Below are positions 14,542-62,973 of a stretch of 64,000 nt of DNA, in pieces. Origin of the DNA: Mesonia aquimarina (GTDB taxonomy: Bacteria > Bacteroidota > Bacteroidia > Flavobacteriales > Flavobacteriaceae); the NCBI RefSeq assembly GCF_003667275.1, contig NZ_RCNV01000001.1:310001-374000 (forward strand). The letters are read 5' to 3'. How positions within the stretch are numbered: position 1 is the stretch's first letter; every line of letters starts with the position of its first letter. The translations under genes were made by a program, and so were the position numbers. A model generated the notes under the pieces. The model made no database searches, had not been told where the DNA came from, and saw nothing but the letters and a program-made list of their open reading frames with translations.

Positions 14542-14665
14542 AATATACTGATATTATGATTAATAGTATTTAATAATAACAATAATAATTGACAACAACA
14601 ATATACAACTGTTAAAAATATTACTTCAAATCATGTTTATAAGAGTCTTAAAATGCTTTTGCAAA

Positions 14666-14737
14666 AGGGATAGTCGCGGCATCCTTTAAAATTTGAAAAA
14701 ATTTAAAAGATATAGCAGATAGCTCGACCCGAAGGGA
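14666..14737 (+). repeat. Dispersed intergenic element, copy 1
   Basis: Begins AAGGGATAGTCGCGGCATCC and ends with AAAAGATATAGCAGATAGCTCGACCCG. The same two end motifs recur at about 43468 and, inverted, at 57354-57472 in this window. It lies between the Cys-rich gene and the 3' end of the GlmU-like gene. No coding potential is visible. Confidence 0.6.
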
Positions 14738-36700: not shown

Positions 36701-36772
36701 CAGTTAGCAGTTAGCAGTTAGCAGTTAGCAGTTAGCAGTTAGCAGTTAGCAGTTAGCAGTTAGCAGTTAGCA
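36701..36772. repeat. Ten-copy heptanucleotide tandem repeat upstream of pabB
   Basis: Ten perfect tandem copies of CAGTTAG followed by a partial CA. On the minus strand the array reads CTAACTG repeated, and its last unit touches the pabB start codon. Because 7 is not a multiple of 3 and the unit contains TAA, every frame is closed, so it is not coding. Perfect identity suggests recent expansion and length instability. Confidence 0.97.
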
Positions 36773-57530: not shown

Positions 57531-60500
57531 ATGCTGAATAAGAGCATTAAATTTTTAATTTACAATAAACTAGTTGCGTTTTTACTGCTGGTATTGCTAG
57601 TCGGTTGGGGATTTACCAATTCCCCATTCAATTGGGATTTAGGATTTTTACCCAATAATCCCGTAGCAGTAGATGCGATCCCAAATATTGGTGAAAATCA
57701 ACAAATCGTTTTTACAAAATGGCAAGGAAGATCTCCGCAAGATATTGAAGATCAAATCACTTATCCATTAACAACTTCGTTATTAGGAATTCCCGGAGTA
57801 AAAACCATTCGGAGTTCTTCTATGTTTGGTTTTTCCAGCATTTACATCATTTTTGAAGAAGATGTAGAGTTTTATTGGAGCCGGAGTCGGATTTTAGAAA
57901 AACTCAATTCGTTACCTGCAAATTTACTTCCGCAGAACGTAAACCCAAGTTTAGGTCCCGACGCGACCGGACTCGGTCAAATATTTTGGTACACGCTCGA
58001 AGGAAGAGATAAAAACGGAAATGTAACCGGTGGTTGGGATTTACAAGAACTGCGAAGCATTCAAGATTATTACGTAAAATACGGTTTATCTGGTGCAAGC
58101 GGTGTTTCAGAAGTTGCTTCTATTGGCGGTTATGTTCAAGAATATCAAATTGACGTTCAGCCTGAAAAAATGCGGCAATATAATATTGGCTTACAGCAAA
58201 TCGTAAAAGCCGTAAAACAAAGTAATCGAGATATTGGCGCACAAACCTTGGAAATTAATAAAGCTGAATATTTGGTACGTGGTTTAGGCTACATAAAATC
58301 GATTGAAGATATTGAAAATGCCGTGATTGCTTCAGAAAATTATACTTCACTACGAATTAAAGATATCGCCAAAGTTCATTTGGGACCGGAAACACGTCGT
58401 GGAATTCTCGATAAAGAAGGAGCTGAAGTTGTAGGTGGCGTGGTGACCGCTCGCTATGGAGCAAATCCAATGGAAGTTATTACTAACGTAAAAGCTAAAA
58501 TTGATAAAATCAGCGGCGGTTTACCTTTAAAAACTTTAAAAGACGGTCGTACTTCACAACTGACCATTGTTCCGTTTTATGATAGAACCGAACTTATTCA
58601 AGAAACGCTCGGCACTTTAAATGAAGCCTTAACGCTGGAAATTTTAATTACCATTCTCGTCATTGTAATTATGGTTTATAATTTACGTGCTTCATTGCTT
58701 ATTTCAGGTTTATTGCCGGTAGCGGTTTTAATGGTTTTTATTGCGATGAAGTTTTTTGATGTTACCGCAAACATTGTCGCACTTTCAGGAATTGCCATCG
58801 CTATCGGAACAATGGTCGATATGGGAATTATTCTCACGGAAAATATAATCAGGCATCTTGAAGAATCGAGAACCGACACAGATCGGAATAAAATTGTTTA
58901 TCAAGCGACTTCAGAAGTTTCGGGAGCAATTGTAACCGCTGTTTTAACCACGATCATTAGTTTTATTCCTGTTTTTACAATGACAGGAGCTGAAGGAAAA
59001 CTTTTTCATCCGCTGGCATTTACCAAAACAATGGCACTTTTAGCTTCCCTAATTGTTGCTTTATTTTTCATTCCGCCGTTCGCAGCTTTATTATTCAAAA
59101 AAGGTAAAAAACAAAAAAGGACGATATTTCTACTCAATATTTTATTAATCATTGTTGGCATTTCATCAACTATCTACGGTTTTTATATCGGAATTTTTAT
59201 ACTCGTTTTTACAATAATTAATATCCTTCAACAGCAAAATTATCTCTCAAAGAAAAATAGCAATAAACTTCAGATTTTACTTTCTGTAGTAGTTATTATT
59301 TACTTTTTAGCTGAATATTGGCGACCGCTTGGCATTTCGCAAAATATTTTTTGGAACCTTATTTTTGTCGCTATTTTGGTCTTCGGAATATTAGGAATTT
59401 TCACGCTCTTCAGAAAAAAATACACGAAAATTTTACGATGGACGCTCGATCATAAACTCTTGTTTCTTTCCATTCCCACTACTTTAGTTATCTGCGGAAT
59501 TTTAATTATGCGAAACACCGGAAAAGAGTTTATGCCTTCTTTAAATGAAGGATCTTTTTTACTTATGCCAACGTCGCTTCCGCACGCCGGTGTTGAAGAA
59601 AACAAGCGTATTCTTCAGCAACTCGATATGGCGGTAGCTAATATTCCGGAGATTAAAACCGTAGTTGGGAAAGCCGGAAGAACCGAATCTGCTTTAGATC
59701 CTGCTCCGCTTTCGATGTATGAAAATATTATTCAATATAAGCCGGAATTTGCACTAAATAAAAACGGCAAAAAACAGCGCTATAAAATCAATGATGAAGG
59801 ATATTTTGTGCTGAAAAATGGCAATCTCGTTAAGAATCCTAATAATGTCAGTTCGAGCGGAGTCGAGAACTCTTCCCAATCTTCCAAAAACATCTCGACT
59901 TCGTTCGATGTGACAACATCTCAGCTAATCCCTGATGAAGATGGCGAATATTATCGAAATTGGCGTCCGAAAATTCAATCTCCAGATGATATTTGGAATG
60001 AAATTTCCAAAGCAACCAAATTACCGGGAATTACCTCAGCGCCAAAATTACAACCCATCGAAACGCGCTTAATTATGCTGCAAACCGGAATGCGCGCACC
60101 AATGGGGATAAAAATTCAAGGTCAAAATTTAAAGCAAATCGAAAGTTTCGGGATGCAATTAGAAGAAATTTTAAAAAAGGCTGAAGGTGTTAAAGACGAA
60201 GCTGTTTTTGCTGATAGAATTGTAGGAAAACCGTATTTATTAATCGATATAAAACGTGAGAAATTAGTACGCTACGGCATTACAATTGACGATGTTCAGC
60301 AAGTTTTAGAAGTCGCCGTTGGCGGAATGCAACTTTCACAAACCGTTGAAGGTCGCGAACGTTATGGAATTAGAGTACGATATCCACGAGAATTACGCGA
60401 TAGTCCTGAAGATTTAAACCAAATTTATATTCCGGTAGCCGATGGAAAACCGATTCCGTTAAGTGAAGTCGCCGAAATTAAATATGAAAAAGGTCCGCAG

Positions 60501-61268
60501 GTTATTAAAAGTGAAGATACTTTTTTAGTGGGTTATGTACTTTTTGATAAACAAGATGGTTTTGCTGAAGTAAATGTAGTTGAAAATGCACAACAACTTA
60601 TTCAGCAAAAAATTGAGCAAGGAAGTTTAAAAGTTCCTAGTGGAATTAATTTTCAATTTACCGGGAATTACGAAAATCAACTTCGAGCTGAAAAAACCTT
60701 ATCGGTTGTTGTTCCGCTTTCGCTGTTCATTATTTTTATGATTTTATATTTTCAGTTTAAATCGGTTGCAACTTCTTTTATGGTTTTCAGTGGAATTGCC
60801 GTTGCTTTTGCCGGCGGATTTATGATGATCTGGTTATACGGGCAAGATTGGTTTCTAAATTTTAATTTATTCGGTGAAAATTTTCGAGATTTATTCAACA
60901 TAAAAACTATTAATTTAAGTGTTGCAGTTTGGGTCGGTTTTATTGCACTTTTTGGAATTGCTACCGATGATGGCGTAGTAATGGCAACCTATCTAACGCA
61001 AGCCTTTAAAAAAAACAGTCCGCAAACAAAAAAAGAAATTAGAAAATCGGTTATTGAAGCTGGCGAAAAAAGAATACGACCTTGTTTAATGACCACAGCA
61101 ACTACGCTTTTAGCATTATTGCCTATTTTAACCTCTTCTGGTAGAGGAAGTGATATTATGATTCCGATGGCGATTCCTAGTTTTGGCGGAATGTTAGTGG
61201 CTTTGGTTACACTTTTTGTCGTTCCGGTATTATTTTCCTGGTGGAAAGAAATGAAAGTTGGAAGTTAG
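57531..61268 (+). CDS. cusA: CusA/CzcA-family heavy-metal efflux RND pump
   Basis: A 1245-aa inner-membrane proton-driven pump, longer than the E. coli CusA (about 1050). N-terminal membrane segment, large porter loop with GIPGVKTIRSSS, then the transmembrane block containing ALSGIAIAIGTMVDMGIILTENI with the proton-relay Asp, a second porter loop (FMPSLNEGSFLLMPTSLPHAGV) and the C-terminal membrane block with VGFIALFGIATDDGVVMATYL. Extra length comes from a hydrophobic insertion (about 525-630) and an inserted repeat around residues 773-795. Its last residues (MKVGS) and stop lie inside an inverted repeat. Likely exports Cu+/Ag+ (or divalent metals) with the TolC-type channel downstream; no membrane-fusion gene is in view. 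Confidence 0.93.
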   Translation: MLNKSIKFLIYNKLVAFLLLVLLVGWGFTNSPFNWDLGFLPNNPVAVDAIPNIGENQQIVFTKWQGRSPQDIEDQITYPLTTSLLGIPGVKTIRSSSMFGFSSIYIIFEEDVEFYWSRSRILEKLNSLPANLLPQNVNPSLGPDATGLGQIFWYTLEGRDKNGNVTGGWDLQELRSIQDYYVKYGLSGASGVSEVASIGGYVQEYQIDVQPEKMRQYNIGLQQIVKAVKQSNRDIGAQTLEINKAEYLVRGLGYIKSIEDIENAVIASENYTSLRIKDIAKVHLGPETRRGILDKEGAEVVGGVVTARYGANPMEVITNVKAKIDKISGGLPLKTLKDGRTSQLTIVPFYDRTELIQETLGTLNEALTLEILITILVIVIMVYNLRASLLISGLLPVAVLMVFIAMKFFDVTANIVALSGIAIAIGTMVDMGIILTENIIRHLEESRTDTDRNKIVYQATSEVSGAIVTAVLTTIISFIPVFTMTGAEGKLFHPLAFTKTMALLASLIVALFFIPPFAALLFKKGKKQKRTIFLLNILLIIVGISSTIYGFYIGIFILVFTIINILQQQNYLSKKNSNKLQILLSVVVIIYFLAEYWRPLGISQNIFWNLIFVAILVFGILGIFTLFRKKYTKILRWTLDHKLLFLSIPTTLVICGILIMRNTGKEFMPSLNEGSFLLMPTSLPHAGVEENKRILQQLDMAVANIPEIKTVVGKAGRTESALDPAPLSMYENIIQYKPEFALNKNGKKQRYKINDEGYFVLKNGNLVKNPNNVSSSGVENSSQSSKNISTSFDVTTSQLIPDEDGEYYRNWRPKIQSPDDIWNEISKATKLPGITSAPKLQPIETRLIMLQTGMRAPMGIKIQGQNLKQIESFGMQLEEILKKAEGVKDEAVFADRIVGKPYLLIDIKREKLVRYGITIDDVQQVLEVAVGGMQLSQTVEGRERYGIRVRYPRELRDSPEDLNQIYIPVADGKPIPLSEVAEIKYEKGPQVIKSEDTFLVGYVLFDKQDGFAEVNVVENAQQLIQQKIEQGSLKVPSGINFQFTGNYENQLRAEKTLSVVVPLSLFIIFMILYFQFKSVATSFMVFSGIAVAFAGGFMMIWLYGQDWFLNFNLFGENFRDLFNIKTINLSVAVWVGFIALFGIATDDGVVMATYLTQAFKKNSPQTKKEIRKSVIEAGEKRIRPCLMTTATTLLALLPILTSSGRGSDIMIPMAIPSFGGMLVALVTLFVVPVLFSWWKEMKVGS
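59846..59915. repeat. Palindromic repeat inserted in frame in cusA
   Basis: Arms TGTCAGTTCGAGCGGAGTCG (59846 on) and CGACTTCGTTCGATGTGACA (to 59915) pair at 19 of 23 positions around a 24-base loop. Sequence of this kind (GTTCGAGCGnAGTCGAGA) is a common intergenic repeat in flavobacterial genomes. Here it is translated as an Ser/Thr/Asn-rich stretch (NVSSSGVENSS...SFDVTT) without breaking the pump frame. Confidence 0.75.
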
Positions 61269-61729
61269 AAACTGGAAACTTAATTTGTTTAAAATATTGT
61301 AAATATGATTAAATCTTATAAAAATTTAGAAGTCTATCAAGAGTGCTATAATTTGGCAATGGATATTTTTTGGGTCACTAAAAATTTTCCAAAAGAAGAA
61401 ATTTACTCATTAACTTCTCAATTAGTTAGAGCTTCAAGATCTGTTTCTGCAAACATAGCGGAAGGTTGGTCTAAGCGAAATTATGAGTCTATTTTTAAAC
61501 AACATCTTATTCATTCACTTGGTTCAAATGGAGAAACAGAAAATTGGTTGAATATTGCGTTAGATTGTAATTATATTGAAAAAGAGAGTTATGATGAATT
61601 GATGAAAAGAAATTCAATTATAGGAAAGAAACTTACTAAACTTCATCAAAACTGGAAAAGCTATGAAAAATAATTCTTCAAATTTATTACCAAATGGCTT
61701 CAAACTTCAAGTTTCAAGCTTCCAATTTC
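61253..61729 (+). mobile_element. IVS-like element: four-helix-bundle gene between inverted repeats
   Basis: Left end GAAAGTTGGAAGTTAGAAAC (61253 on) and right end (61702-61729) are imperfect inverted repeats: 23 of 28 aligned positions pair, with one extra base on the left. They enclose only the four-helix-bundle gene. This is the plan of the intervening sequences (stem plus S23-type ORF) known in bacterial 23S rRNA genes, but located between two protein genes. The mobile nature is inference. Confidence 0.5.
61305..61673 (+). CDS. Four helix bundle protein (S23/IVS-encoded family)
   Basis: A 122-aa helical protein with the family pattern: YKNLEVYQECYNLAMDIFW, FPKEEIYSLTSQLVRASRSVSANIAEGW (the most conserved segment), then HSLGSNGETENWLNIA. 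The family (S23 ribosomal protein-like) is named from ORFs inside 23S rRNA intervening sequences; the accessory protein Avd of diversity-generating retroelements has the same fold. Function in operons is unknown. Its end overlaps the start of the TolC-type gene by 11 bases. Confidence 0.93.
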   Translation: MIKSYKNLEVYQECYNLAMDIFWVTKNFPKEEIYSLTSQLVRASRSVSANIAEGWSKRNYESIFKQHLIHSLGSNGETENWLNIALDCNYIEKESYDELMKRNSIIGKKLTKLHQNWKSYEK

Positions 61730-62973
61730 AGAATAAAACTCAAACCTGCCTAAATGGAAATTTGACATTAAGTTTGATAATAATCTTAATTTTCGGATTC
61801 AAGACAAACGCGCAAGTTTTAGAGAATTATGTTGAAAAAGCGCAAACTAACAATCCACAAATTGAAGCGTTGGAATTAAAGCACGAAATTGCTTCAGAAA
61901 AAGTAAATGAAGCCAATACGTTACCGAATACTGAAGTTGGCGCCGGCTATTTTGTAAGTGAACCCGAAACACGAACCGGAGCGCAAAAAGCAAAATTATC
62001 GGTTAAACAAATGATGCCTTGGTTTGGAACCATAACTGCACGCGAAAATTACAGCACTTCCCTAGCCGATGCCGCTTATGTTGATATTGCCATCGCGAAA
62101 CGCAAATTAGCACTTTCAGTTACGCAAACCTATTACCAACTTTATGCACTGAAAGCGAAACAACAAATCTTACAAGAAAATATCGATTTATTAAATACGT
62201 ATGAAGAATTAGCGCTAAACGCGGTAGAAGTAAATAAAGCTTCTTCAGTAGATGTCTTGCGCTTGCAAATTCGGCAAAATGAATTGGTAGAAAAAAGAGA
62301 CTTATTAATGGGCGACGAACTTGCGATGGAAAGCAGATTTAATAATTTACTAAATAATGAAGTTGAAAACAGTATTCTAGTAGAAGACTCACTTAACATT
62401 CCCCAAGAAGAACCCATTTTAGCGATAGAAGATTTAAAAGTCCATCCTGAATTAGAAAAATACGATAAACTCTACGCTTCGGTAAAAGAAGCAGAAGAAT
62501 TAAATCAAACTCAGAATTCTCCTGCGATTGGTTTTGGACTCGATTATATTGCTGTAGAAAAACGTCCCGATATGAATTTTACCGATAACGGAAAAGATAT
62601 TGTTATGCCAATGGTTTCGGTTTCAATTCCTATTTTTAACGAGAAAAATAAATCGGTTTCGCGACAACATGAAATTCAGCAACAAGAAATAGAAGCACAA
62701 AAAAATGAGGTGAAAAATAATTTGGAAACCACTTTAAAAGAAGCTATTCAACAACGAATTTCAGCTAGAATAAGTTACCAAACCCAACTAAAAAATATTG
62801 AACAGACAAAACAAGCCGAAGAAATTTTGTTGAAACAATATGAAACTGCCAGTTTAGATTTTAAAGATGTGCTTGACATTCAAGAATTACAGCTCAAGTT
62901 TCAACTTCAGCTAATTGAAGCTATTAAAAATTATTATTTACAAACCGCAATTATAAACTATATCAGTAACTAA
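61663..62973 (+). CDS. TolC/CusC-type outer membrane efflux protein
   Basis: A 436-aa outer-membrane channel of the OEP family. The mature part shows two long-helix repeats (residues about 50-235 and 250-430), with VTQTYYQLYALKAKQQIL and a matching ISYQTQLKNIEQTKQAEE in the second repeat. The signal peptide hydrophobic core (LTLSLIIILIFGF) is preceded by an abnormally long leader of about 32 residues, nine of which (14-22) come from the right inverted repeat of the element upstream. Only one ATG is available; TTG codons just before the core could be the original start. Partner of the CusA pump. Confidence 0.88.
   Translation: MKNNSSNLLPNGFKLQVSSFQFQNKTQTCLNGNLTLSLIIILIFGFKTNAQVLENYVEKAQTNNPQIEALELKHEIASEKVNEANTLPNTEVGAGYFVSEPETRTGAQKAKLSVKQMMPWFGTITARENYSTSLADAAYVDIAIAKRKLALSVTQTYYQLYALKAKQQILQENIDLLNTYEELALNAVEVNKASSVDVLRLQIRQNELVEKRDLLMGDELAMESRFNNLLNNEVENSILVEDSLNIPQEEPILAIEDLKVHPELEKYDKLYASVKEAEELNQTQNSPAIGFGLDYIAVEKRPDMNFTDNGKDIVMPMVSVSIPIFNEKNKSVSRQHEIQQQEIEAQKNEVKNNLETTLKEAIQQRISARISYQTQLKNIEQTKQAEEILLKQYETASLDFKDVLDIQELQLKFQLQLIEAIKNYYLQTAIINYISN

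Follow-up and report, generated by a model that had tools for sequence, protein, structure and literature searches.

The S23 gene between the cusA-like and cusC-like efflux genes, together with the repeats that enclose it, is probably one copy of a mobile gene-plus-repeat system in the style of REP-RAYT, with a protein that has no transposase domain. At its ends are inverted arrays of a 7-nt word, which is specific to the lineage of the S23 protein. Two old puzzles are perhaps one: what S23/IVP proteins do, and how bacterial heptanucleotide tandem repeats arose. The proposed link predicts that related S23 proteins read related words. If true, mobile elements would include a further type, with a protein that lacks a transposase domain and with degenerate arrays as ends.

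Results

An S23 gene between inverted heptamer arrays

The element (Table 1) was identified in a 64-kb stretch of DNA, hereafter the window. Both arms are period-7 tandem arrays (GGAAGTT/AGAAACT type), inverted around the S23 gene. According to the sequence, the open reading frames and a repeat search, the original prediction was correct on the inverted repeat, on the lone gene and on its setting between cusA and cusC. Coordinates of the open reading frames also confirmed its claim on the borders: the stop codon of cusA (TAG, ending at 61268) and its last residues are encoded within the left arm, and the right arm is translated near the start of the cusC-like reading frame (start at 61663).

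Table 1. Coordinates in the window of the S23 element and of its two host genes.
Feature	Position	Strand	Basis
Left arm, degenerate heptamer array GAAAGTT GGAAGTT AGAAACT GGAAACT T	61253..61281	+	Sequence, inverted repeat
S23 / 23S rRNA-intervening-sequence protein gene, 122 aa, four-helix bundle	61305..61673	+	PF05635, TIGR02436, AlphaFold
Right arm, same word inverted: TTCAAAC TTCAAGT TTCAAGC TTCCAAT	61698..61730	+	TRF period 7, 4.7 copies; inverted repeat
Upstream host gene, cusA-like RND transporter	57531..61268	+	PF00873, ORF
Downstream host gene, cusC-like outer membrane efflux protein	61663..62973	+	PF02321, ORF

Taken alone, the inverted repeat is a 1–2% event and only moderately unusual: its score of 30 was matched by 1.2% of 2,834 cross-pairings and was also reached by one of 55 flanks of open reading frames in the window. 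The element goes beyond chance because its arms are period-7 arrays and because the same plan is common to about three quarters of the tested family members. These results confirmed the feature as an IVS-like element in an operon, with a lineage-specific heptamer array as its defining trait. The original prediction of an IVS-type element thus stood as regards inverted arms and an S23 gene in protein operons; it failed as regards folding or excision at the RNA level, and it had missed the heptamers and their link to protein lineage. No rRNA was detected in the 64-kb window at gathering scores. A match to Flavo-1 RNA (RF01705) was found at window positions 14656–14733.

The encoded protein matched PF05635 (E = 1e-32; 113 bits, cut-off 33.8) and TIGR02436 (102.9, cut-off 24), and its predicted structure (AlphaFold, pLDDT 96) consists of four helices. 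By these scores and this fold, the product of 61305–61673 belongs to the S23/IVP family. The best PDB matches of the model were 2gsc, with a TM-score of 0.84–0.87, and 2rld. The former is the S23 structure of Xanthomonas campestris, a species with dispersed GGGAATC heptamers, and a homopentameric ring is stated for the Xanthomonas S23 protein (PMC4990558). Among the fold neighbours (E 0.06–0.6) was DGR Avd, which is found in solved DGR ribonucleoproteins; its entries 4dwl and 8ube were weaker matches (E 0.06–0.08, TM-score about 0.75). No transposase domain was found in the S23 protein by Pfam, which returned 23S_rRNA_IVP and a bAvd match below threshold (21.9 bits, cut-off 40) only. GxxExxY (PF13366), considered as a partner of S23, was rejected, with none in the genome.

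Heptamer arms in three phyla

Eleven S23 genes were present in the genome that carries the element. The gene also occurred in 42 of 60 relatives, in 62 of 398 Pseudomonadota, and in 74 of 146 genomes of the phylum that contains a Gastranaerophilales genome; phage records gave one weak match. The upstream flank of each copy was compared with the reverse complement of its downstream flank, with cross-pairings between copies as null and a self score of at least 26 as threshold for arms. Arms were found in 186 of 249 copies, against a null of 2–11%, and 63 copies missed the threshold. The copies come mainly from Bacteroidota, Cyanobacteria and Pseudomonadota; as many are orthologues or duplicates, the counts overstate independence and should be read as a measure of prevalence rather than as separate trials. 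Arms were found in 59 of 99 copies of the first set (null 4.3%), 9/9 of the plasmid set (2.2%), 65/79 of the named-genome set (7.3%), 27/32 of the cyanobacterial genomes (6.9%) and 26/30 of the Pseudomonadota (10.8%).

The period of the arms was taken as the strongest lag between 4 and 13. Lag 7 ranked highest in 175 of the 249 copies (68/99, 6/9, 61/79, 16/32 and 24/30, in the same order of sets), as compared with 10 of 199 outer flanks, 9 of 102 flanks of window reading frames, and 3 of 31 and 0 of 30 outer pairs. Identity at lag 7 amounted to 0.37–0.39 in S23 flanks, 0.26 further out and 0.30 in the flanks of window reading frames. The original prediction had named repeats that run on as far-extending low-complexity sequence as the case against it; this case did not apply, as the period-7 signal was on average absent further out.

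The first set (99 of 100) comprised the 11 own copies, 29 loci of relatives and 60 further picked places, from which L099 fell out. Nine of 34 records made up the plasmid set, and the best 80 of 572 relatives the named-genome set, in which L154 was too short (79 left). The cyanobacterial genome set (32) consisted of 28 of the 29 loci L322–L350 (without L332) plus L367–L370, and the Pseudomonadota set (30 of 31) of 29 loci plus L371 and L372, with L390 too short. Loci L012/L110, L015/L111 and L041/L124 were counted twice. Outside the count are the S23 loci of L284–L313 that are absent from the sets, L351–L366 (one of which is L324), L402–L408 and L415–L421.

A location in 23S rRNA was ruled out for the other S23 copies scanned, with rRNA at none of 40 loci, chosen mostly outside Bacteroidota. 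In genome G301, the S23 gene of L403 lies between direct, not inverted, copies of a heptamer-bearing stretch of about 55 nt. CRISPR loci on two cyanobacterial plasmids (L107, L109) contain S23 elements that separate cas6 from cas4.

The word follows the protein lineage

The relation between word and protein was analysed in 13,590 strict pairs among 176 copies, in which both neighbours were present and unrelated; a word score of at least 30 counted as a shared word. At such unrelated sites, the word was shared by 87.5% of the 24 pairs with protein scores of at least 170 bits (21/24, drawn from few clades), by 37% of 91 pairs at 140–170 bits, by 15% of 1,204 pairs at 120–140 bits and by 2–3% of pairs below 120 bits. 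Among the 115 pairs with at least 140 bits, 48% shared the word, a value reached in none of 2,000 permutations. On protein trees, three samples of 70–72 copies at unrelated sites (54–59 in word clusters; 147 of 252 copies qualified) required 40, 37 and 38 word changes, as compared with shuffled means of 49.5, 44.9 and 47.3, and none of 200 label shuffles per sample was as low. The link fades below about 50% protein identity, which is why binned and tree-based tests were used; over all pairs, protein and word similarity were weakly rank-correlated (r 0.038, with 31 of 500 permutations as high).

HNFKELKVW proteins were accompanied by AGTATCA-type words at several unrelated junctions, which, from their flanking peptides, presumably include metH/metF and nuoC/nuoD. 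Related proteins shared a word even across phyla (pairs L027–L109 and L026–L105): a flavobacterial copy (L027) and one from a Pseudanabaena plasmid (L109) encode related S23 proteins and have TTAGC-type words. The words of some close protein pairs, among them L134–L168, differed. The AT-rich background blurred the position-frequency matrices, of which that of the KFQDLLAY clade was the clearest in Bacteroidota, with a 4-nt core CAGT and three looser positions.

Occupied, empty and array-only junctions

Three junctions were compared between genomes, two of which are presumably cysD/cysN and hemF/hemB, as read from their flanking peptides. At cysD/cysN, the element was present at three of 24 loci (of 27 cysN loci), at one of which (L200) the S23 protein was of a different clade and the word another one; L192 carried bare heptamers. 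At hemF/hemB, five of 22 loci were occupied (L270 with a stop in the S23 gene) and four were internally deleted or array-only, one being shortened (L266) and three carrying arrays or array remains (L250, L253, L269); no element or array was noticed at the other 13. These 22 were taken from 29 hemB loci; at L255 and L262–L264, all among the latter 13, a gene other than the hemF-like one, or none that was recognised, lies upstream.

At cusA/cusC, the element was found at two of 28 loci, the window and L232 of another genus. Loci L218 and L220 held 6 and 10 perfect TTAGAAG-type units without an S23 gene, L236 a long array in which no intact S23 reading frame was found, and L237 a short repeat of 6-nt period. 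The remaining 22 loci had gaps of −11 to 23 nt; the empty orthologous sites sought under the original prediction are found in close relatives. The 28 loci were drawn from 30 (32 matches) and include second cusA copies from the same genome. In L236 (genome G017), the C-terminus of the cusA homologue appears to be a translated AAGTGAT-type heptamer array.

Both neighbours were co-directional with the S23 gene in 155 of 167 Bacteroidota-rich copies, as compared with 28 of 50 window genes; the corresponding counts were 22/29 for cyanobacterial chromosomal, 5/9 for cyanobacterial plasmid and 16/30 for proteobacterial copies. The S23 ATG followed closely on the upstream stop codon (median distance 53 nt, n = 164). 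Some S23 sites, such as those of the RRHNFKKLQIW set, were retained across species.

Multiplied copies and arrays without a gene

A triple GGGAATC pattern occurred in four of 398 Pseudomonadota genomes, at several places in G221 and G351. Each of these two genomes contains exactly one S23 gene, against a base rate of 62 in 398; G189 and G322 have GGGAATC matches and no S23 gene. The arms of the S23 gene are built of GGGAATC/GGGAATG-type units in G221, and of GGGATTC/GGGATTG, one base off the dispersed GGGAATC, in G351. Of two inverted pairs without a gene that were read in G221, one (L409) has GTTCAAGC and GCGCTCCGC (8–9 nt) in common with the inner edges of the S23 element, beyond the heptamers, as would an internal-deletion derivative of that element. 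The inner edges of the other pair (L410) are not shared with it. In G351, L411 and L412 are very long perfect GGGAATC arrays of at least dozens of units.

A cyanobacterial genome (G583) contains 12 near-identical S23 elements (L351–L362), a family that shows spread within one genome. Ten of the 12 have a common outer end, TAACTGACGTTACGCA (16 nt), with different sequence outside it, and the full-length copy L362 has a near-inverse of this sequence at its other end. Copies L353 and L359 have a common left flank that differs from the other ten. Given the shared outer end, another transposon may carry the unit in this genome. Most G583 copies show a truncation near residue 87 as well as a second heptamer array, of GGCAAAA type.

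Twin copies in G286 and G518 were rejected as proof of transposition: their identity extends over about 1.7 kb, which gives them the appearance of segmental duplications. INSYKDLIVW copies L375, L378, L382 and L389, considered as separate sites, proved to be one site.

Flanked by two minus-strand genes, a perfect lone array, (CAGTTAG) x10.3, occupies 36701–36772 of the window. Three of its units were matched within 3 mismatches nowhere else in the genome. Its TTAGC core resembles the arms of S23 copy L004.

Discussion

Proposed mechanism

The S23 protein most likely binds its own word at the ends of the element, either in DNA or in nucleic acid made from it. Upon binding, the unit, as well as array-only derivatives without the gene, would be copied or inserted into gaps between genes. 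Because the S23 protein has no recognisable catalytic domain, the chemistry is proposed to come from outside, supplied by the host or by other enzymes. Copies lie mainly between co-directional genes of operons, presumably because insertion does least harm there. Some of the inserted copies would subsequently decay to lone arrays. Arms may start out identical, as they are in L136, L146 and L160, and then drift under a constraint on the word.

More tentatively, and as a possibility that is not put forward as probable, S23 proteins might read the words of a class of mobile elements that spans phyla. Each lineage would recognise its own 7-nt word and seed inverted arrays around the gene and elsewhere, and the class would thereby have produced both the intervening sequences of 23S rRNA and the orphan heptamers found in cyanobacteria, xanthomonads and Bacteroidota, without a transposase of its own.

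Alternative explanations

Folding or excision at the RNA level, as put forward in the original prediction, would have the arms pair in the operon transcript and RNase III remove the S23 segment, with selection for the stem. Cleavage by RNase III is described for the Coxiella 23S rRNA IVS (PMC4990558), and both the prevalence of co-directional copies in the Bacteroidota-rich set and a predicted fold that closes on the arms are consistent with such an excision; in proteobacteria and on cyanobacterial plasmids, however, only about half of the copies (16/30 and 5/9) were co-directional. If the stem were kept as RNA, arms should pair better with their own partner than with other arms of the same word, and G.U-type mismatches should prevail over A.C-type mismatches. 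Own-arm pairing was slightly better among all 209 diverged orthologous pairs (119 against 81; means 29.2 and 28.7), which are non-independent. Among independent pairs, it was better in 18 and worse in 11 of 31 orthologous pairs (p = 0.11), and better in 5 and worse in 7 of 12 non-orthologous pairs. An excess of G.U was absent from 217 stems (265 G.U-type against 321 A.C-type mismatches; same-word cross control, 811 against 1,119), and the fold of the element as RNA reached a z of only −1.53, being matched or bettered by 7 of 100 shuffles. On the pairing test, the mismatch test and the fold, selection on an RNA stem was rejected as the main force, and excision of this kind is unlikely. The pattern of the arms is more likely to reflect recognition of the word, in DNA rather than in RNA. 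Binding of RNA by S23 proteins may nevertheless occur, by analogy with Avd-like relatives that act in RNA-protein complexes.

It is similarly improbable, if slightly more so, that the element is a regulatory cassette, in which S23 binds the word to regulate its own gene and the neighbouring genes, and which spreads by horizontal transfer and recombination instead of mobility of its own. Location in operons, co-direction and the retention of some sites across species, as in the RRHNFKKLQIW set, would fit a cassette; sister species whose junctions are empty or differently occupied, the same clade at unrelated operons and the gene-less derivative argue against it. Transport of S23 and its arrays as a passenger, by insertion-sequence transposases acting on other ends, is suggested by the shared outer end in G583 and its near-inverse in L362. 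No such ends were noticed by eye in the other flanks read, and upstream stop codon and S23 ATG lie close together; this explanation is very improbable. Slippage alone, with heptamers that have no tie to S23, could account for perfect lone arrays (window 36701–36772; L218 and L220), and a survey cited in PMC4679880 is said to rank heptamers as the most abundant repeats of 5–11 nt in most of its genomes. This reading is already contradicted by the association with S23 flanks in three phyla, the inverted arrangement and the correlation of protein and word, and is scarcely tenable.

Comparison with known systems

Insertion sequences and MITEs have fixed terminal repeats and a target-site duplication. 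The arms of S23 elements vary by copy, and neither a target-site duplication nor a fixed boundary of the element was established. The DGR protein Avd has the same overall fold as the S23 protein, but the neighbours of the S23 gene are efflux genes and not a reverse transcriptase, and the bAvd score of 21.9 lies below the 40 bits of the cut-off.

Published heptamer repeats resemble the arms in being 7-nt tandem words, mostly intergenic and in some cases in inverted pairs. Rehm et al. described dispersed GGGAATC heptamers in Xanthomonas campestris, with 70 convergent pairs, and GGGGAYT heptamers are reported for Nostoc (PMC4692102). For Beggiatoaceae, Cyanobacteria and Bacteroidetes, MacGregor reported TAACTGA arrays; horizontal spread is suspected, and the article states that a transfer mechanism is not evident (PMC4679880). 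Repeats in the P6b element of the Nostoc tRNA-Leu intron are described as base-pairing heptanucleotides (PMC3488679). The term S23 is absent from the text of PMC4692102 and PMC4679880, and "helix bundle" from that of PMC4679880. A general tie of S23 genes to heptamer arrays was not found among the literature matches listed, a scope outside which most subscription papers fall.

The 23S rRNA IVS of Coxiella consists of an S23-family reading frame between terminal inverted repeats that form a 28-bp stem, and its 5' arm contains tandem GACAGAT heptamers, apparently treated there as a local feature (PMC4990558). Terminal inverted repeats around an S23 reading frame are common to this IVS and the cusA/cusC element; the IVS lies in 23S rRNA and is cut by RNase III, whereas the cusA/cusC element lies between protein genes. 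The Coxiella IVS heptamers, the cyanobacterial heptamers and the GGGAATC repeats of Xanthomonas fit a mobile system of S23 plus word; among the literature matches listed, none links the three.

In REP-RAYT systems, a gene is flanked by inverted lineage-specific repeats, with dispersed repeats elsewhere, some of them inverted doublets (PMC2817692). The S23 gene is likewise flanked by inverted cognate repeats. Differences lie in the parts: short palindromes (REPs) and a tyrosine (Y1/HUH) transposase (RAYT) make up the former, whereas the S23 element consists of heptamer arrays and a four-helix bundle. Cognate repeats dispersed without the gene were seen in G221; for words of the window type, gene-less arrays were seen in sister species among the cusA/cusC loci compared. 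REP-RAYT is the nearest functional analogue of the S23 element.
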